Both the position numbers and the translations under genes were made by a program. DNA of 37,560 nucleotides from Flavobacteriales bacterium (GTDB taxonomy: Bacteria; Bacteroidota; Bacteroidia; Flavobacteriales; Flavobacteriaceae), in the NCBI GenBank assembly GCA_027065715.1, contig JAMONO010000073.1:1-37560 (forward strand). Reading direction: 5' to 3'. The notes beneath the pieces are model-generated. The model was given only the letters and a program-made list of their open reading frames with translations, was not told where the DNA came from and searched no databases. Below, piece by piece: positions 19,997-36,281 of the stretch (its first letter is position 1; each line of letters opens with the position of its first letter).

Positions 19997-20564
19997 CGTC
20001 TGAAATTTCTTCGTATTCTACATCTTCCGCCGGATATTGATTGAAGTCAATAACACCTTTATTCAATTGTTCGCGCAAAGCTTTGGCAACATCACGCGGA
20101 ACGGTAATCTTATAGATATGCGCTTCAATTTTTTCAGCCAATTTTTCATCGTCTAAATTTCTGTCGAAATCAAACAATTCCTTATAGCTGTCAAGCGCTT
20201 TCCGTTGCTGGTCACGATTACCATCCTTAACCGCCATTTGATACAATCGCCAATAAGCTTCACGAAGTATAATCTTAACGCCTTCTGTGTTAACAGTATG
20301 AATATCGCCAAACAAAGCCAAGGCATTATTTACATCGCGGTAAGCCTGCGCAATAGAAATGTTTTCGGTTTTGTGCAAATATTTAGCCGCCTGTCCCGAT
20401 GAATATATTTTATCACGCATCAAAGAAAACGCTGTCATCCACCGGCGTTTTAGTTTCAGTTCCTTATCAGACAACACAATCTCATCATCGATAAACGAAG
20501 CTTTGATCCGGTCGAAGTGCGTCTCTTTATCAAACTTTACTCTACTTATCGCTTTCTTTGACAT
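19989..20564 (-). CDS. terS: Terminase small subunit candidate
   Basis: This 191-residue, mainly helical protein has a segment SSGQAAKYLHKTENISIAQAYRDVNNAL (about 57-85) that fits a DNA-binding helix-turn-helix, and an acidic C-terminal tail (DVEYEEISDDE). Its position directly before the large subunit, with an 8-bp overlap, supports a DNA-recognition role in packaging. It overlaps the methyltransferase gene upstream by 23 bp. The family pattern is diverse, so the call depends largely on context. Confidence 0.7.
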   Translation of the reverse strand: MSKKAISRVKFDKETHFDRIKASFIDDEIVLSDKELKLKRRWMTAFSLMRDKIYSSGQAAKYLHKTENISIAQAYRDVNNALALFGDIHTVNTEGVKIILREAYWRLYQMAVKDGNRDQQRKALDSYKELFDFDRNLDDEKLAEKIEAHIYKITVPRDVAKALREQLNKGVIDFNQYPAEDVEYEEISDDE

Positions 20565-21912
20565 TATTTAAAATTTCGTTAATATCTTCTTCACTCATTT
20601 TTTTGCCGTTTTTTGTGATTTCAAACAACAATTCATTATCACGCATATACTGAACATATCTGCGGAAAGTAACATCGACATACTTCGGATCGAGTTCCAT
20701 CACACGCGCATTGCGTTTATTTTTTTCGCAAGCTATCAGCGTGGAACCGGAACCAGAAAACATATCGATAACAATAAATCCTGATAAAGAATGACGTTTC
20801 AAAGCGCGCTCGGCAAGTGCGATCGGCTTTTGTGTGGGATGCACGTAATCATTCACACGATCACGGCGTTCATACCATACGTCCACTATATTTTTATAGT
20901 CGTCAAATTCTGCGGTAAAAACATCTCTGAAATTATTGAATTTCTTAACAACGAAATGTTTCTCGCCTTTTTTCCAACCGAAAATAAACGGCTCATACGT
21001 CCGGTGAAAATCAGCTCCCGGACTAAATATCATATTTTCCTTCAACCAAATAACCGTTTGTGCCAAATGCCAACCGGTATTTTTGAAAGCCGTTTCGTTT
21101 AAAACATAATTTTTCAAAGCATACCACCAATAGATAACCGCTTCCTTTTTGGTGAAATCATATAAGTTTTTCAATACATTCGTATAGAATGAAATAGCTT
21201 CTTTTTCCGTTTTGTTATCTGAAAATATCTTACCGGAATATCCGCCATACTTCGGTGAATCATAACCCAATCCGGTTCGGGATTGATAATTGACATTATA
21301 CGGCGGATCGGTAAACACCATATTAGCCTTATCATTACCCATCAGTTTTTTTGTATCGCCTTCAAATTCGGCATTACCACAGAGCAGGCGGTGTTCTAAA
21401 TCTTTTTCCAAAGATTTGAACACATACAAATCACCGGTATCGCTAATAGGTTTCACAGGCGGTGTAGGATCAAACTCTCCTTCTTTTTCGCTCTTATAAG
21501 CAGACGGTAAATCAAAGTCCGGCAATTCAGTAATATCCAAACCTATTTCGTCCAAATCCAAATCCGAAAAAAACTCGTCCAAAATAGCGCTGTCCCATTC
21601 TCCGTAATCTACATTTGAGCGGATATTATATTCTTTCAATTCTTCTTCGGTCAATGGACGGTTAGGAATCCGAACATCTATCAGCTCATCGCCACGGTCC
21701 AATGCCATTAAAACCATAATCCGTTGATGTCCGGCAATAATGGTGTTATCCGTATTGATAGCCGGAATTTCAACCAAGTCAAATTTTTCTAACGAAGCAA
21801 TCAATAATTGCTTGCGTTCTTCCGAAAGCTTTCGCGGATTATAACCCAACGGAACCAAATCTTTTACCTTCCGTTTTTCTGTCCGCCACGATAATTTTTT
21901 GATATTACTCAT
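20542..21912 (-). CDS. ParB-like domain fused to a beta-class DNA methyltransferase
   Basis: This 456-residue two-domain protein has a ParB/Srx-like N terminus (about 10-100) with the IIAGHQR motif at 58-64, and an amino-methyltransferase domain. In that domain DPPYN (202-206) comes before HPTQKP (348-353) and FSGSGS (375-380), the motif order of the beta class, which makes N6-adenine or N4-cytosine. It probably modifies phage DNA before packaging, since it is coupled to terminase (23-bp overlap). No restriction endonuclease is nearby. ParB-methyltransferase fusions beside terminase are known in phages and genomic islands. Confidence 0.9.
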   Translation of the reverse strand: MSNIKKLSWRTEKRKVKDLVPLGYNPRKLSEERKQLLIASLEKFDLVEIPAINTDNTIIAGHQRIMVLMALDRGDELIDVRIPNRPLTEEELKEYNIRSNVDYGEWDSAILDEFFSDLDLDEIGLDITELPDFDLPSAYKSEKEGEFDPTPPVKPISDTGDLYVFKSLEKDLEHRLLCGNAEFEGDTKKLMGNDKANMVFTDPPYNVNYQSRTGLGYDSPKYGGYSGKIFSDNKTEKEAISFYTNVLKNLYDFTKKEAVIYWWYALKNYVLNETAFKNTGWHLAQTVIWLKENMIFSPGADFHRTYEPFIFGWKKGEKHFVVKKFNNFRDVFTAEFDDYKNIVDVWYERRDRVNDYVHPTQKPIALAERALKRHSLSGFIVIDMFSGSGSTLIACEKNKRNARVMELDPKYVDVTFRRYVQYMRDNELLFEITKNGKKMSEEDINEILNNVKESDK

Positions 21913-27267: not shown

Positions 27268-27723
27268 TCAAGCATTTATAATTTTCAGTTTTCTACGCTT
27301 AAAATCTTTTAAAAGACTTTCACTATTCACATCATCTTCGGTGATGCCGTAATAAGCTAAAAAATCTTGCAAGGCATAAGCATATTTTTGACCATAATTT
27401 TCATTAGCCATTAAAACAAAATGAAAAAGATCTTCTCTAAACAGATTGTCAACCAACCTGCCAAACATTCTCATTTGTCTTTTGCTGATAAATAATCCGT
27501 TGGCAGTATAGATACTTTCAGGTATTTGAACTTCAAACAAATCATTATACTGATCAATAATATTAACAGATTGATCCGGCGTTCTATTCAGCAATGCTAT
27601 AACTATATAGCCAATAGCATCACTACGATTAGCAATTACAGGTCCTTTACCATACTTTTTCTGCAAATATTTCTTAATGTATCTTTTTACAGGAAAACTG
27701 ATACTTACCTTAAAATCGGCCAT
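27268..27723 (-). CDS. Hypothetical basic protein at the head of the late region
   Basis: This 151-residue basic protein starts MADFKVSISFPVKRYIKKYL and has a C-terminal Lys/Arg-rich segment (KDFKRRKLKIIN). Middle helices include ISKRQMRMFGRLVDNLF. No enzymatic motif is visible. It is the first gene after the gene-free control region, and an 18-bp palindrome made of GTTACAA half sites ends 2 bp before its start codon. That arrangement would suit a DNA-binding protein that controls its own translation start, but no classic helix-turn-helix is evident. Other possible roles are a structural or accessory late protein. Confidence 0.6.
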   Translation of the reverse strand: MADFKVSISFPVKRYIKKYLQKKYGKGPVIANRSDAIGYIVIALLNRTPDQSVNIIDQYNDLFEVQIPESIYTANGLFISKRQMRMFGRLVDNLFREDLFHFVLMANENYGQKYAYALQDFLAYYGITEDDVNSESLLKDFKRRKLKIINA

Positions 27724-27724
27724 A

Positions 27725-27742
27725 GTTACAAAATTTTGTAAC
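27725..27742. promoter_or_regulatory. 18-bp perfect palindrome at the first late start codon
   Basis: GTTACAAAA followed by TTTTGTAAC is fully symmetric and lies 2 bp upstream of the ATG at 27723, overlapping one of the TGTAACC boxes. It is a likely operator or translational control site. Confidence 0.6.
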
Positions 27743-27762
27743 CTTTAAGAAACCAACAAAAA

Positions 27763-27792
27763 CAATAGCGCAAAAACTGTTTTTGTGTCATT
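27763..27792 (+). repeat. 30-bp imperfect direct repeat, copy A
   Basis: CAATAGC, GCAAAA and TTTTTGTGTCATT occur in order here and again at 28014-28045, with two inserted bases and two substitutions. Each copy begins 17-26 bp after a TGTAACC box. Confidence 0.75.
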
Positions 27793-27819
27793 GGTTTTTT
27801 AAAAATCACTTGTTTTTTT

Positions 27820-27852
27820 CAAAGATAAAAAAGATTTTTTCTAAAATGCAAA
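27820..27852 (-). promoter_or_regulatory. Predicted promoter of the first late unit
   Basis: On the minus strand TTTG (27852-27849), 21 nt, then TATCTTTG (27827-27820) exactly fits the Bacteroidota TTTG/TANNTTTG consensus. Transcription would begin near 27813, giving a leader of about 90 nt that contains repeat copy A and the palindrome before the gene at 27723. Confidence 0.6.
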
Positions 27853-27884
27853 ATTGTTAATAAAAAACTATTTTTATTAACAAT
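27853..27884. promoter_or_regulatory. 14-bp-arm perfect inverted repeat directly upstream of the late promoter
   Basis: ATTGTTAATAAAAA (27853-27866) is mirrored by TTTTTATTAACAAT (27871-27884) with a 4-nt loop. It touches the -33 box on its upstream side, the usual position of an activator site. Confidence 0.6.
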
Positions 27885-28013
27885 AATATATTTCAAACAA
27901 CCGAAAAACCTCCAACAAACACCTATTTTCAACAAAAATCACACTTAATCTTTGTAATAAAAAAAATCTGAATAATCGTGCAAAAAACTGTAACCTTGTA
28001 ACCGCTTGTATTT

Positions 28014-28045
28014 CAATAGCTTGCAAAAGCTATTTTTGTGTCATT
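28014..28045 (+). repeat. 30-bp imperfect direct repeat, copy B, with internal hairpin
   Basis: This is the partner of 27763-27792. It also contains an 8-bp stem AATAGCTT/AAGCTATT (28015-28022 with 28027-28034) around GCAA, absent from copy A, followed by Ts on the plus strand. Confidence 0.7.
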
Positions 28046-28090
28046 TTGTAACCGGCTGTTTTTAGGTTACAACTTTTTTGTAACCTTTTT

Positions 28091-28108
28091 ACTCTTATTT
28101 ATAAGAGT
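28091..28108. repeat. 7-bp-arm hairpin between two TGTAACC boxes
   Basis: ACTCTTA (28091-28097) pairs with TAAGAGT (28102-28108) around TTTA. It lies exactly between the direct TGTAACC boxes at 28079 and 28109. Confidence 0.5.
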
Positions 28109-28311
28109 TGTAACCTATAAAATATAATAAAATCAGTAGTAGATAAATCAAGGTTACAAGGTTACAATTTTTTTTCACTTTTTTACATTTTTTTTAAAAG
28201 AACGAAAAAAGCTGTAATTTGTTAATGAATTACGATATTTTCAATAAAAACGCCACAAAGTTACAATTCATTGAAGATATGATAATTTATAAAAAAGTCC
28301 GAAAAAGACAC

Positions 28312-28342
28312 AAAAAAAACCGGACATCCGCAGATGCCCGGT
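28312..28342 (-). terminator. Rho-independent terminator of the early region
   Basis: ACCGGACATC (28319-28328) pairs with GATGCCCGGT (28333-28342), with one G-T pair and a 4-nt loop. On the minus strand eight Ts follow. It is the most GC-rich stem in the window and closes the leftward early transcript 27 bp after the stop at 28369. Confidence 0.92.
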
Positions 28343-28368
28343 GCAAAGAATCAATCACTCGTTCGATT

Positions 28369-28827
28369 TTACTTCTCTTCATTAAGCTTGTCAACAAGTA
28401 GTTCAGGTGTTTCCATTATTGCGTTTAATATTTTTTCATAAAAATGTTGTTTTACGGATAAATCAAATGTTTCATTGCGTGGTTTTATACAATCATCTTT
28501 ATACCTGCCTATTTCTTTTTTGAATAGTTTTATGGTTTCTTCTTCGTCAATCTGAAAAACAAGTTTTAAACAATAAAAAGGTTGGTTTTTTGCTTCAAGC
28601 GTCAATGTAATAAAGTAAGGTGCTTTTTTATTAAGATAATTGTTAATTATAGGAACACCCATAAATTTATAATCACATTTATCTTCCGATGAGAATCCGT
28701 AATGCTGCATTGTAAATCTTTCTAAATCTACAAATAAATTATTAGGCAAAATCACCTTGTCCGGATTGCGCCCGTAATCATCTTGAAACTTCCATATAAT
28801 TTTAGATAAAATTTCTGCTATATTCAT
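28369..28827 (-). CDS. Hypothetical protein, last early gene
   Basis: This 152-residue acidic protein has a beta-rich middle (FMGVPIINNYLNKKAPYFITLTLEAK) and helical ends. It has no signal peptide or known motif. It overlaps the gene upstream by 4 bp (ATGA type) and precedes the strong early terminator. It belongs to a group of four small genes (29702 to 28369). Genes like this near the end of phage early transcripts are often host-takeover factors, but nothing specific can be said here. Confidence 0.55.
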   Translation of the reverse strand: MNIAEILSKIIWKFQDDYGRNPDKVILPNNLFVDLERFTMQHYGFSSEDKCDYKFMGVPIINNYLNKKAPYFITLTLEAKNQPFYCLKLVFQIDEEETIKLFKKEIGRYKDDCIKPRNETFDLSVKQHFYEKILNAIMETPELLVDKLNEEK

Positions 28828-31439: not shown

Positions 31440-31820
31440 TTAAATGTGTTTTTGATTGTTAATTAATTCAACAAATAACCGGTAACGTTTTTTTAAATAA
31501 GGAATAGTATCAACTAATTTTCGGCCATACCAAACAGATGCGTGATCTCTATTTAACAAACTGCCAACCTGCTCCAATGTCACATATTCATTTTCATACA
31601 AATATTTTCCTATAATATGCCGAGCTTCTGACAATCTGCGAACTTTACTAATACTGCGCAATTCTACCAATAAAATATTGTTATTTGTCAAATCGTTATA
31701 TTTTCTTAGCAAAAACAATAACTTTTCAGTTTTTGTAATCTTCTTTTTTTTAAATTTTTTTTTGATACTTTTTGTTTTTACGCTTGATTGCATTTTGTAT
31801 TTTGTTAAAATAATATTCAT
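31440..31820 (-). CDS. DnaA domain IV-like DNA-binding protein
   Basis: ATG at 31820 has a rare Shine-Dalgarno-like AAAGGA just upstream and gives 126 residues. A very basic N terminus (KKKFKKKK) leads to a C-terminal region with the DnaA signature: SEARHIIGKYLYENEYVTLEQVGSLLNRDHASVWYGRKLV, where RDHASVWYGRK corresponds to DnaA RDHTTVxHAxRK. The AAA+ domain is missing, so it could bind DnaA boxes without loading helicase. It lies just after the primase-helicase and a 102-residue gene, so a role in origin recognition or in diverting host DnaA is likely. Confidence 0.75.
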   Translation of the reverse strand: MNIILTKYKMQSSVKTKSIKKKFKKKKITKTEKLLFLLRKYNDLTNNNILLVELRSISKVRRLSEARHIIGKYLYENEYVTLEQVGSLLNRDHASVWYGRKLVDTIPYLKKRYRLFVELINNQKHI

Positions 31821-32058
31821 ATGTCCTTTCAATAGCTTTTTGCACTTCCGGGTGTGTTGCGCTACCAATCATATTACCGGATGCTACCGGCTTATTATAT
31901 ATCGTCCGTCCGAAAGGCTGATCTACGGCTATATACCATTTTCCACCTTCATACACTTTTCCTTTGATATATACAGTCTCGGAAAAATGAATAGGTGTTA
32001 CATATACTTTTTTGTCCCAACAATATTTAAGAATCTTATTAAATTTTTCTGCATTCAT
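31750..32058 (-). CDS. Hypothetical early protein between primase-helicase and DnaA-like gene
   Basis: This 102-residue protein has a beta-rich N-terminal half (KVYVTPIHFSETVYIKGKVYEGGKWYIAV) and a basic C-terminal helix (RKNKKYQKK). It may bind nucleic acid, but no family is recognised. It overlaps the DnaA-like gene by about 70 bp in another frame and follows the primase-helicase by 11 bp. Confidence 0.5.
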   Translation of the reverse strand: MNAEKFNKILKYCWDKKVYVTPIHFSETVYIKGKVYEGGKWYIAVDQPFGRTIYNKPVASGNMIGSATHPEVQKAIERTYEYYFNKIQNAIKRKNKKYQKKI

Positions 32059-32069
32059 AGTCCTGAATT

Positions 32070-34964
32070 TTAATAAGGTGCTTCATCTTCCGGAATGCCG
32101 TCAAACACCGTTCGTTCATCATCCAATTGTTTTTCTTCTTCGGCTACCTGTGCCATTAGCTCATCGATATTTGTTTCCGGTGTTTTTAGGAAAAACATTT
32201 CAACTGATTTTACTTTACCGTCTATATTGCGTTTTTTGATAATTCGTCCGGATTTATCGCGCATTTCTTTCGGGTTCAAATCATAGCCCTTGTATTTGCA
32301 ATAAGCTTCCACCGCTTTTTTAAATTTGTTGGTGCCCATTTTACTGCGGGTTTCACGTCTGAAATCTTCATAAGCAACCGGACGTGGCACCAAGGTGTTC
32401 AACCTGCCGGATTGCTCGCTGAAATATACTTCCGCCCAATCTTTGAAAGCCGTTCCCATTTCGGCTATCAAATTACGCTTGCGAACATTTGCCATAGGCG
32501 GGTCTATCTTATCCGGTGTGCGCATAAAAAATTGAAGCGTTTGCGCCATAAAATTGTAAAAAGCATTCCACTCGGCTATGTCAAACTCCGTAAACAATTC
32601 CTTACCGCCAAAATCATCACTCACTTGGCGGGTTTCCAAATACTCGCCGTCCTTATTAAAATGGTAATAGTCTGAAAATACCGTAAATAAGATACGGCGA
32701 GCAGTGGACGGATCAAGGTTTTGTGGCGGATAGTTAGAAGTGCCACACATTTTGGGTGCCTTGTCAAATGGCAACTCAAACTGTGATTTATTCTTTTGGT
32801 TGATTTTCATTGACGAAGTTATGTCGCTGAAAAAGTATTGAAAATCAAAATACTGCGACATATCATCTACGAAAACATAATCCGTTTCTTCGCTCACGCC
32901 GTCATATATAAACTCGTTTTTGGTGGCGTTTTTGTTTCGTCCCGGAATATAGAAGCGGTTTTTCAATATGTATTGCAAATTCTCAAAGGTCAAAGACTTA
33001 CCGCTACCTCCGTGGCTTTCTTCTACATCCGATATTTTATTGTCCATAGCAAAAACAAACCACGCTTTCTTTTTGGTTTTGTAACGGTGTAATAAATAAC
33101 CGATAGCGAATATCTTATTGATCAGGTGTTGTTTTTGTTCCAAGACTTCTTCATCGTTGAGCAAAGGTCCGTCAATGGCAAACTTGTATTTTTGTTTATA
33201 TTCTATCTGCTCCTTGCCGGATTTGGTTTGCAACCGCTCTTCCAACTCTTTGCGCCAATGGATACGGCTTGCATTAATCAAAAAATTGAAAAATTTATTG
33301 TCTTTTTTCAATATTTCAATATCCCAATCACCGTTGGCATCTTTAAAAATGCGAAAATGCGGGTTTTCTACAAAATTACGTTGCGTAACATTATGATCTA
33401 ATATCTTGTCTTCCCACACAAAATTTTGGCTGTCATCCGGCTTAATTGTTATCAGTTTGTCGGCGGTTATCCGCAATACGAATTTCGGGAAATACCAATA
33501 CTGATAATTTTTGCCGTGGTTGATGAAGTCTAATGTGCGGTAGGGTAGGCGCATCAGGTAATTTTCTTTCAGGTGCGGTGCCGTCATAATCAGGTCGAGC
33601 AGTTGCACCGGCAACATTTTGTTTTGCGCCCACTTGATCACATAATCGGCAATATCTTTTTCGTTGATTTTTTTCACGATATGCCCGGTTATGTGTATAT
33701 AGATGAAATCGTCTGTTTGCGGTAGGCGGTAGCGTGCAAATCCGCTCATTGCCAAAAAATGCAAAAGCTGTGGCAAATGCAGGCGGTAACGTAGCGTTTT
33801 GGTTTTTGGTGAGATATATTCGCTCCAAAACTTCACCGGTAAGGCGTTGGTCAATATCTTGTCAAACCAACTGAAACGCTTACCGTATTTGTCCGGATGA
33901 TAGAACTTACTGACAAAATCGGTAAAATCTTTCATCGGGTTGCCACGTCTGTCTTTTCGTTGCCGAAGTTCTTCCGGCAGGAATGCCGTTTTAACGTCGA
34001 TATATTTAAAAGAGAGTTTGCGCGCTTGTATCAATCCGGTGTTGTCGATATCAGGCACATTGATGATTTCTTCCGCCATTTTAGACAATTTCTTATATAG
34101 CTGTTTGTCTAAATCAGCGGTTTCGCTATTGAGCCAAATCACGTTATAACCAAAGCTCGCCATATTGAGCGCATCTCTGTCACCTGACGCTATCAATATG
34201 CGATCGAGCTTTGGCGGTTCATTGTTTTTGTCTTTTTTCTTATCCGAAGTTTCTTGGTCAAAAGCCTGATCTTCTTCATATTGTTGCGTAATGATTTGAA
34301 AGCGTTCTTCCACCACGTCCAACCCAAACACAAAATCCTTCGGCTTGTCACCGGCATAGCGGAACCGGTCTTTTTTATACTTGGCCAGCGGTTGATATAT
34401 CTTTTGCCACGTGCCAAAATCAAAGGCAAAAATCGGATAGTCATCGGTAGAATGAATTTGTAATACTTCTCCGTCTTTTTTTACAAACTCATAATATTCA
34501 ATGCTTTTAAAGTGGTATTTGTCAGCCACTTCGTTGGTAAAACCCTTTCCTATAACTTTCAATTCCTTGTCCGAAAACTGATCCTTAAAAAAGAAATGAT
34601 AATCACCGGGTTTTTCACCGGCTTTGGCTTTGCGTTTTTTATATTCCGGTTGCAGTTTCAATACGCGTCCGCCCCACGGAATTTGATAACGCGCTGCCAA
34701 ACGTTTCAACGCTTCACCAAAATCAATACCTTCTTCATACATACATACATCAAACGCATTCTTTGGACGGTCCCAACTGCCCCAATCGTGCACATACCAC
34801 ACACCTTTTATTTCTTTTAGCGATGCTGATGCCGTTCGTTCGTCGCGTATTTTGAAATGCCTGCCTGTGCGTGCTTCCGTGTAATAGGATTGAATGATTT
34901 GCAATCCGCCGTTGGTTGCATCCAATATATCTTGTTTGATTTGGTCAAAGTTGATTTCTTTCAT
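32070..34964 (-). CDS. Replicative primase-helicase (toprim plus SF3-like helicase)
   Basis: This is a 964-residue replication protein. The N terminus resembles CHC2/DnaG-type domains without cysteine ligands. A toprim-like segment spans about 256-315 (ILIASGDRDALNM, then INVPDIDNTG). The helicase domain shows Walker A HGGSGKS (651-657), motif B DYVFVDDMSQ (705-714), motif C CGTSN (740-744) and an arginine-finger-like STARRILF (753-760). This matches phage D5/P4-type primase-helicases (SF3). It should prime and unwind DNA at the phage origin. It is 3 bp from the gene upstream. Confidence 0.9.
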   Translation of the reverse strand: MKEINFDQIKQDILDATNGGLQIIQSYYTEARTGRHFKIRDERTASASLKEIKGVWYVHDWGSWDRPKNAFDVCMYEEGIDFGEALKRLAARYQIPWGGRVLKLQPEYKKRKAKAGEKPGDYHFFFKDQFSDKELKVIGKGFTNEVADKYHFKSIEYYEFVKKDGEVLQIHSTDDYPIFAFDFGTWQKIYQPLAKYKKDRFRYAGDKPKDFVFGLDVVEERFQIITQQYEEDQAFDQETSDKKKDKNNEPPKLDRILIASGDRDALNMASFGYNVIWLNSETADLDKQLYKKLSKMAEEIINVPDIDNTGLIQARKLSFKYIDVKTAFLPEELRQRKDRRGNPMKDFTDFVSKFYHPDKYGKRFSWFDKILTNALPVKFWSEYISPKTKTLRYRLHLPQLLHFLAMSGFARYRLPQTDDFIYIHITGHIVKKINEKDIADYVIKWAQNKMLPVQLLDLIMTAPHLKENYLMRLPYRTLDFINHGKNYQYWYFPKFVLRITADKLITIKPDDSQNFVWEDKILDHNVTQRNFVENPHFRIFKDANGDWDIEILKKDNKFFNFLINASRIHWRKELEERLQTKSGKEQIEYKQKYKFAIDGPLLNDEEVLEQKQHLINKIFAIGYLLHRYKTKKKAWFVFAMDNKISDVEESHGGSGKSLTFENLQYILKNRFYIPGRNKNATKNEFIYDGVSEETDYVFVDDMSQYFDFQYFFSDITSSMKINQKNKSQFELPFDKAPKMCGTSNYPPQNLDPSTARRILFTVFSDYYHFNKDGEYLETRQVSDDFGGKELFTEFDIAEWNAFYNFMAQTLQFFMRTPDKIDPPMANVRKRNLIAEMGTAFKDWAEVYFSEQSGRLNTLVPRPVAYEDFRRETRSKMGTNKFKKAVEAYCKYKGYDLNPKEMRDKSGRIIKKRNIDGKVKSVEMFFLKTPETNIDELMAQVAEEEKQLDDERTVFDGIPEDEAPY

Positions 34965-36041: not shown

Positions 36042-36281
36042 TTATTTTTTTTGGAATAATTTCTCTTTTTCCGCTTCCAAGTCTTGAAGCTCTTGTAGTT
36101 TTCTTTGATAAGCTTCTAATATTGCCTTTTCTATAATAATATTATTACGAACTCCTGAAAATACGTGACGGATATAATCATCCGTGTATTCAAGCCCTTT
36201 TGTTTTAAGTAATTCTTTTGTTTTGACAATATAAAAAGGCAATACTTTTTTTATTCTATTTCGTTGACGTTTATTTATCAT
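36042..36281 (-). CDS. Cro-like small DNA-binding protein
   Basis: This 79-residue basic protein is the first gene of the leftward early operon and divergent from the repressor. The middle resembles the small Bacteroidota phage HTH proteins with a DDYIRHVFSGVRNNIIIEKAIL motif, where the G-x-R-N-N turn lies after the recognition helix. The C-terminal helix is a coiled coil (LQELQDLEAEKEKLFQKK) that may mediate dimerisation. By position and size it is the likely counterpart of Cro, antagonising the repressor. Confidence 0.7.
   Translation of the reverse strand: MINKRQRNRIKKVLPFYIVKTKELLKTKGLEYTDDYIRHVFSGVRNNIIIEKAILEAYQRKLQELQDLEAEKEKLFQKK

Follow-up and report, generated by a model that had tools for sequence, protein, structure and literature searches.

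We have analyzed a stretch of 37,560 nucleotides, referred to here as the window, which constitutes the entire contig C73 of its genome. An array of eight TGTAACC boxes at positions 27989-28166 (minus strand) is very probably the replication origin of the phage encoded there, with the phage's own primase-helicase (32070-34964, minus strand) as its initiator; we infer both binding and firing from comparison with related phages. An origin of the iteron type was among the functions proposed in a first-pass annotation of this DNA, and the comparison with other phages supports it well. It reveals the array itself, a layout that recurs from phage to phage, the company of array and enzyme, a concerted change of the boxes, and a covariation between one residue of the enzyme and one base of the box.

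The window encodes an integrase, a tape measure protein, a head protease and a primase-helicase, and on the basis of these genes it is assigned to a temperate tailed phage, whose host, judged by its relatives, belongs to the Bacteroidetes. No exact overlap was found between the two ends of the window (12 to 1999 bases were checked). GC skew is uninformative about the origin, since nearly all genes of the window point in one direction.

The array and its surroundings

The array lies in a gap of about 645 bp that separates the last early gene (28369-28827, minus strand) from the first late gene (27268-27723, minus strand) and contains, in this order, the early terminator, the array, a promoter and the late ATG. 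The intrinsic terminator after the early operon, at the edge of the gap (28312-28343, minus strand), was read by eye. Upstream of the late operon, 27820-27852 (minus strand) has the form TTTG-N21-TAtcTTTG (TATCTTTG after N21), which fits the consensus of a Bacteroidetes-type promoter. The late operon also encodes a ParB-like nuclease domain fused to a DNA methyltransferase (20542-21912, minus strand; PHROG matches).

Of the 12 copies of TGTAACC in the window, nine fall within 27737-28166, with starts at 27737, 27989, 27997, 28047, 28065 (minus), 28079, 28109, 28152 (minus) and 28160 (minus). The first-pass annotation had reported nine exact copies in about 430 bp, and all were recovered. Dinucleotide shuffles (1000) of the local 1027 bp (27290-28316; GC 0.27, taking in part of the first late gene) gave a mean of 0.09 and never more than 2 copies, and in them 7-mers of four different letters reached at most 6 copies; in 100 shuffles of the whole window the count averaged 3.6 and peaked at 11. 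A 7-mer count over the window, suggested as a check at that time, placed TGTAACC at the top of the clustered 7-mers in 450-bp windows across the contig, tied with its own one-base shift, and the top 8-mer was one matching TGTAACC. Genome-wide there is no marked enrichment: TGTAACC has 231+199 copies and its reversed control 199+191.

On the late (minus) strand, with > denoting TGTAACC, the order of the eight array boxes is >> < < > < <<, at array positions 1, 9, 52, 82, 96, 114, 164 and 172. The two pairs with 8-bp offset noted previously (27989/27997 on the plus strand, 28152/28160 on the minus strand) are confirmed and form the ends of the array, where they stand in inverted orientation. The pair at the left end in late-strand orientation (28152-28166, minus strand) recurs in both strict and pattern scans of other phages. 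Among the interior boxes, that at array position 52 (28109-28115, plus strand) has counterparts at 51/52 in many relatives, that at 82 (28079-28085, plus strand) at 82/83, that at 96 (28065-28071, minus strand) at 95/96, and that at 114 (28047-28053, plus strand) at 111-113. The ninth box (27737-27743, plus strand) stands apart, about 245 bp from the array and next to the ATG of the first late gene.

Conservation in a close relative

With the head protease as the search key, 84 of 397 family genomes matched at E 1e-10, for the most part weakly and over about half of the query, and one close viral contig was found, the IMG/VR contig L002, whose protease is 92% identical to that of the window. 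The first late protein (27271-27723) was of no use as a key: no relative could be confirmed by pattern searches of viral and genome contigs, and among 13 genomes of the genus only the window itself was found. A DNA search of phages gave no match.

L002 covers the gap and was aligned to the window. From the terminator through the array, 348 of 369 alignment columns are identical (170 of 178 in the array itself); past the array the figures are 30 of 51, then 79 of 83 in the promoter block and 55 of 103 in the leader, and the first late protein is only 61% identical. Terminator and promoter are both kept. Conservation of the boxes in a relative, for which the first-pass annotation had called, is clear: the TGTAAC core is kept in all eight array boxes and the full TGTAACC in seven. 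The single box at 27737 also keeps GGTTACAAAA. An extra TGTAAC core (TTGTAACTTTG, minus strand) just after the early terminator, at 28260-28265, overlaps a TAacTTTG promoter-like element and is kept in L002 (757-767).

Two further elements had been counted as parts of the same hub. The palindrome at the late ATG does span 18 bp (GTTACAAAATTTTGTAAC, 27725-27742), but it lies one base, not two, from the ATG at 27723, and an 11-base difference interrupts it in L002. Both copies of the duplicated 30-bp module exist, beginning 26 and 17 bases after a box start, and the copy at 27763 is only about half conserved. Neither element is a conserved part of the array in this alignment. Because conservation in L002 separates the array from the palindrome and the module, we regard the eight-box array as the real feature, with the palindrome, the module and the ninth box outside the array that relatives share.

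The array in other phages

More distant phages were reached through homology to the 964-aa primase-helicase. Other Bacteroidota phages, among them Polaribacter phage Leef_1, Bacteroides phage BT-TP2 and Spirosoma prophages, carry arrays at this junction too, of which that of the window is a short version; their primase-helicases are 35-51% identical to that of the window. Their layout is recurrent, with an inverted pair of 8-bp offset at each end and interior sites at recurring positions. The box is nearly uniform within most arrays and varies among phages (TGTAAC, TGTAAT, TGTAAG, TGTATA, TGAAAC, CTTAAC). Leef_1 has TGTAAT at 12 of 12 sites, seven of them TGTAATC (L060:28064-28327), and BT-TP2 has mostly TGTAAC with some TTACGA variants. 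The Spirosoma-type prophages L023 and L024, with arrays identical to those of the Spirosoma genome loci L034 and L035, show the box order of the window minus one interior box, and mostly TGTAACA rather than TGTAACC.

A strict scan for facing pairs of 8-bp offset gave matches in 24 of 38 loci with the enzyme. It found no array in the other 14 (L029-L033, L037, L039, L040, L050-L053, L055 and L056), some of which are truncated, and looser finders gave partial or different-core arrays in L031, L032, L033, L053, L055 and L056. Site positions are nearly fixed in many phages, for example 1, 9, 52, 73, 83, 96, 112, 144, 157, 210 and 218, and L107 and L124, two fragments without a detected enzyme, come close to a perfect dyad of about 265 bp in the order of their sites. 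The array of the window corresponds to the left half of this 1-to-218 layout and a right half shorter by about 45 bp, its right end pair (27989-28003, plus strand) being displaced by that distance towards the left end relative to the common 209-210 layout.

L023, L024, L055, L201, L202 and L207 have a pyrimidine-rich stretch (like TTTCCTTGCAACCTTCC) immediately preceding the left end of the array. It may serve as a primer or loading site and is not evident in the window. In L227, L229 and L230, arrays of extended boxes like AAAAGTGAAACA are found 0.15-0.75 kb after the primase-helicase gene, and L229 has 15 copies of such a box core.

Genes accompanying the array

When viral records were scanned for the array without regard to the enzyme, 72 matched. 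A strong primase-helicase homologue is present in 44 of them, a weak zinc-finger match in one (G448), and none in 27. Nineteen of the 28 records without a strong homologue are under 35 kb. The nine of at least 35 kb comprise G448, with a classic array, G441 and G460, with 11-12 sites in unusual order, and six with 5-6 sites; the array pattern is partly self-complementary and can be matched by unrelated inverted repeats. Five of the hits (L069, L091, L106, L125 and L131) have two to four TGTAAY boxes of 8-bp spacing facing each other at 200-270 bp; they have no interior sites, are richer in G+C and are without the primase-helicase, and may be unrelated inverted repeats or another system.

Among 87 array loci, many of them fragments, the commonest neighbour is the primase-helicase, at 40 loci. 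Next come, among others, a late protein of 166 aa at 29 loci, the protease at 28, LuxR at 19, a protein of the capsid region and an early protein of 162 aa at 17 each, and the first late family of the window at 15. In 37 related loci (primase strand), some of which are copies of one phage, the primase-helicase is present in all by selection. The counts for other window proteins are 20 loci for the protease, 18 for the LuxR-like protein, 13 for the first late protein, 5 for the 79-aa gene at 36045-36281 and 2 for the second late gene. Nine other early proteins had no relative in these loci (primase strand), and seven window proteins encoded between the primase-helicase and the array had no same-strand homologue there. 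The array does not simply follow the head genes, since two protease relatives (L025 and L026, 41% and 38% identical) have neither array nor enzyme in the 19-20 kb examined.

The first-pass annotation had listed, besides a Cro-like protein, a DnaA-like, a LuxR-like and the first late protein as possible binders. The DnaA-like candidate, a 142-aa protein (31443-31868, minus strand), has a helix-turn-helix like that of DnaA domain IV (Pfam E 1.3e-5, below the cut-off); it has no relatives in the 37 related loci (primase strand) and was rejected. The other two are not shared widely enough among the related loci. The same annotation held that the sequence does not name the binding protein; the comparison points to the primase-helicase.

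The primase-helicase

The proposed initiator consists of a weak CHC2-like zinc region, a TOPRIM primase, an SF3 helicase and a predicted C-terminal winged helix. Its AlphaFold2 model has a mean pLDDT of 85, and 90.7 in the C-terminal domain. DnaG and T7 gp4 primase domains align with residues 120-470 (Z 12-14.5), where TOPRIM-like motifs can be read, and SaPI5 and D5 helicases align with residues of about 315-830 (Z 16-19), which include a Walker-type GGSGKS. The best structural match is the SaPI5 primase-helicase (7ola/7om0, Z 19). Pfam searches gave DUF5906 in 9 of 28 family members and weak CHC2/Toprim matches, and a plasmid search only partial matches, over 22-36% of the query, in 5 records.

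The C-terminal domain (residues 838-935; 32160-32453, minus strand) is modelled as a helix, a strand, two helices and a beta-hairpin, the wing, and is the part that we propose binds the boxes. Its fold matches are weak (Z at most 6.8) and, going by their names, presumably mostly winged helices; among the best are RFX winged helices at Z 6.7-6.8. The P4 origin-binding domain is absent from the fold-match lists of this domain, which we do not count as evidence against a shared fold, and a comparison with PDB sequences gave nothing below E 0.39. The model places residue K911 in the first strand of the wing hairpin. In RFX1 it is the wing, not the recognition helix, that is described as reading the major groove (PMC4333399).

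Covariation of residue 911 with base 6 of the box

Fifty-four arrays were each paired with the enzyme encoded in the same record. At base 6 of the box, 35 of them have C, 15 have T and 4 are mixed, and the boxes of an array change in concert between phages. Seven of the 54 rows, six near-duplicates and L130 with its incomplete enzyme, were dropped before training. The alignment column that best separates C-type from T-type arrays, first of 898, is that of K911 of the window (codon at 32232-32234, minus strand), at which K or R occurs in 94% (weighted) of C-type and 0% of T-type. The training residues are K 23, R 7 and N 1 for C-type and T 4, S 2, N 2, Q 2, H 1 and L 1 for T-type, and the table of residue against base is 31 C and 2 other for K/R, and 1 C and 13 other for the remaining residues. 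L095 (G440), with N, is the sole member without K/R among 31 unmixed C-type training rows. Natural variants at this residue include L in Leef_1 and R in the Spirosoma type.

Sixty-four further loci were examined with a finder blind to base 6, and an array was accepted with at least 7 sites and at least one 8-bp pair, a criterion set after the 64-locus list was seen. In 31 unseen arrays, K/R goes with C in 19 and with another base in 3, and the other residues with C in none and another base in 9 (P=1e-5); 28 agree and three fail (L223, L225 and L231). For the 20 that are less than 80% identical to the training set and to one another, the corresponding counts are 12, 1, 0 and 7 (P=1e-4), and 19 agree. 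In training, K/R at 911 came out first among 25,920 column-by-group tests. It did so again when the 20 unseen phages were taken alone, there tied with K/R/H at the same residue, and the next-best training columns lose from half to nearly all of their signal in the new set. The box state changes 15 times on the tree, and 13 tree-aware independent pairs gave 10 differences in the same direction, none in the opposite and 3 without difference (P about 0.002). The link between residue and base is present in each of three GC classes. The test covered the columns of the primase-helicase alone.

Base 6 was scored by the commonest letter, which leaves as weak cases L220 (4 C of 8) and L232 (6 G, 4 T), which agree, and L231 (R; 3 A, 2 C, 2 T), which fails. 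Among the exceptions are L073, L078 and L231 with R and L223 and L225 with K, in which base 6 is mixed or mainly T or A; the mixed arrays with R (L073 and L078) mean that the code is not strict. Divergent homologues with other cores obey the rule in 18 of 19 cases, L056 (K) being the failure, with these 19 arrays assigned by eye. The cores TGAAAC, CTTAAC and TTTAAC, all ending in C, go with K/R, and there are new states in TGTAAG with W (L205-L207) and TGTATA with T/N (L233-L238). The other 14 of the 64 loci were left unscored. Three of these, L197, L190 and L188, conform to the rule, with K/R and mostly C. Two depart from it: L050 has K with 5 T and 1 A, its locus ending just past the primase gene, and G774 has N with 3 C, 2 T and 1 A. 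L224, with R and 3 C, 2 T and 1 A, is ambiguous, and the others have no convincing array, are truncated or, like L052, nearly duplicate a scored locus. A contact of K/R with the guanine of a C:G pair, and of N/Q/S/T/H with T:A, would be chemically sensible.

Proposed mechanism and alternative readings

In the mechanism that we propose, the boxes would each be bound by the C-terminal winged helix of the primase-helicase, and base pair 6 would be read by residue 911, which lies in the first wing strand and is K or R where the pair is C:G. The many near-dyad sites, with end pairs facing inward, would gather several subunits of the enzyme, and two SF3 helicase rings might then assemble at the array, by analogy with P4 alpha; the inverted end pairs and the near-dyad order suggest that the rings would be opposed. 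The AT-rich array would melt, the fused TOPRIM primase would lay the first primers, and firing would presumably be bidirectional.

One phage speaks against this proposal. G448 (L103) is 93% identical to G440 (L095/L228) around the array, with 11 of 11 boxes kept and 209 of 214 array bases identical; the array has been kept while the enzyme was exchanged, and the primase-helicase gene of G448 is replaced by one for a different 1062-aa CHC2/TOPRIM/helicase fusion. Nothing in this enzyme matches the C-terminal domain, and the 14.2 kb of G448 examined showed no second clustered repeat array. In this lineage the array may have become a relic, may be used by the new enzyme, or may be recognised by a second protein.

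The array could in addition time late transcription, through the bound initiator or through passage of the fork altering the late promoter. Its recurrent placement at the early/late junction, the ninth box at the late start and the promoter block kept in L002 speak for such a dual element; the neighbouring late gene and the distance to it vary, and we consider this second role rather unlikely. The first-pass annotation's other proposal, a late-gene control region, would have a LuxR/GerE-type activator or the first late protein bind the boxes and switch on the promoter at 27820-27852. Regulators of the GerE type recognise short heptamers whose orientation varies. In the window, as in many relatives, the late operon begins shortly after the array, in the window with a conserved promoter between the two, and the box at 27737 is beside the late ATG. 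Against this, a GerE/LuxR domain was found in at least 19 of 39 records with array and primase (11 over the cut-off), a lower bound because the LuxR annotated in Leef_1 escaped detection; the gene next to the array belongs, across phages that share the array, to at least three families unlinked by BLAST at 1e-6; and the covariation points to the primase-helicase. Control of the late genes by such a protein is improbable as the function of the array. Sites for a host protein would explain why G448 keeps its array despite the exchanged enzyme, but the boxes differ among phages of one phylum in step with a phage residue, which makes this reading very improbable. Repeat arrays with inverted order are typical of packaging sites and of partition centromeres, but a packaging (cos/pac) or partition function is hardly credible here, as the covariation is with the primase-helicase and the array of Leef_1, a phage described as having Cos 3' ends (PMC8776804), is about 29 kb from the start of its record and 8 kb from the end, which would place it away from the genome ends if the record starts at cos, as we assume.

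With the array read as an origin and the primase-helicase as its initiator, a likely origin and initiator can be named for a large group of Bacteroidetes phages. The covariation would provide a natural series of initiator specificities, would allow origins in new phages to be predicted from the protein and vice versa, and would open a route to studying how origin and initiator change jointly with function retained. In the open-access literature we found no description of such an array or of the origin of a Helgolandviridae-like phage. Tentatively, and with the odds slightly against so broad a claim, these phages may represent a previously undescribed class of origin that is found widely among Bacteroidota phages. 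In it, a near-dyad array of some 8-12 boxes would load a pair of opposed SF3 rings, like the origins of some eukaryotic DNA viruses, and box and initiator wing would co-evolve through a simple, readable code (residue 911 and base 6) into many mutually incompatible specificities.

Comparison with known systems

By architecture and fold, the best reading appears to be an origin of P4/SaPI type recognised by the phage primase-helicase. The array does not match an iteron plasmid origin: the Rep proteins of such plasmids (RepA/RepB) are without helicase or primase and go with direct repeats of about 20 bp, whereas the boxes of the window are 6-8 bp, stand in both orientations and have a primase-helicase as their partner.

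The P4 origin has short boxes in both orientations, and P4 replication also needs a separate site, crr. The window likewise has multiple short boxes in both orientations, which covariation appears to match to the initiator. It differs in the sequences of the boxes and in having a single near-dyad array with end pairs of 8-bp offset, in tailed temperate Bacteroidetes phages. P4 alpha is described as uniting in one protein a TOPRIM primase, a helicase and a C-terminal winged helix that binds origin repeats (PMC4234260), and the window enzyme likewise has a TOPRIM primase and an SF3 helicase in one chain, followed by a domain predicted to be a winged helix.

The SaPI5 primase-helicase, as noted, is the closest structural match to the window enzyme. 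SaPI Rep works with its own iteron origin. The SaPIs are reported to have initiators with helicase activity and primases, both of which are fused in P4 (PMC7145576); unlike in the SaPIs, the DnaG-like TOPRIM primase of the window is fused into the one 964-aa chain. Systems of the pRN1 type are described as having an SF3 helicase with a C-terminal winged helix and an origin downstream of the gene (PMC4234260). Unlike the window, pRN1 has an archaeo-eukaryotic primase and a stem-loop origin with no repeat array.

Among phages already described, Leef_1 of the Helgolandviridae has both the array and the enzyme, 48% identical to that of the window and annotated as 'DNA primase/TOPRIM'. Neither an array nor an origin is among the 47 annotated features shown for it, and the terms 'origin of replication' and 'iteron' do not occur in the text of its description (PMC8776804). 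The P4, SaPI and pRN1 systems are the nearest to be described.
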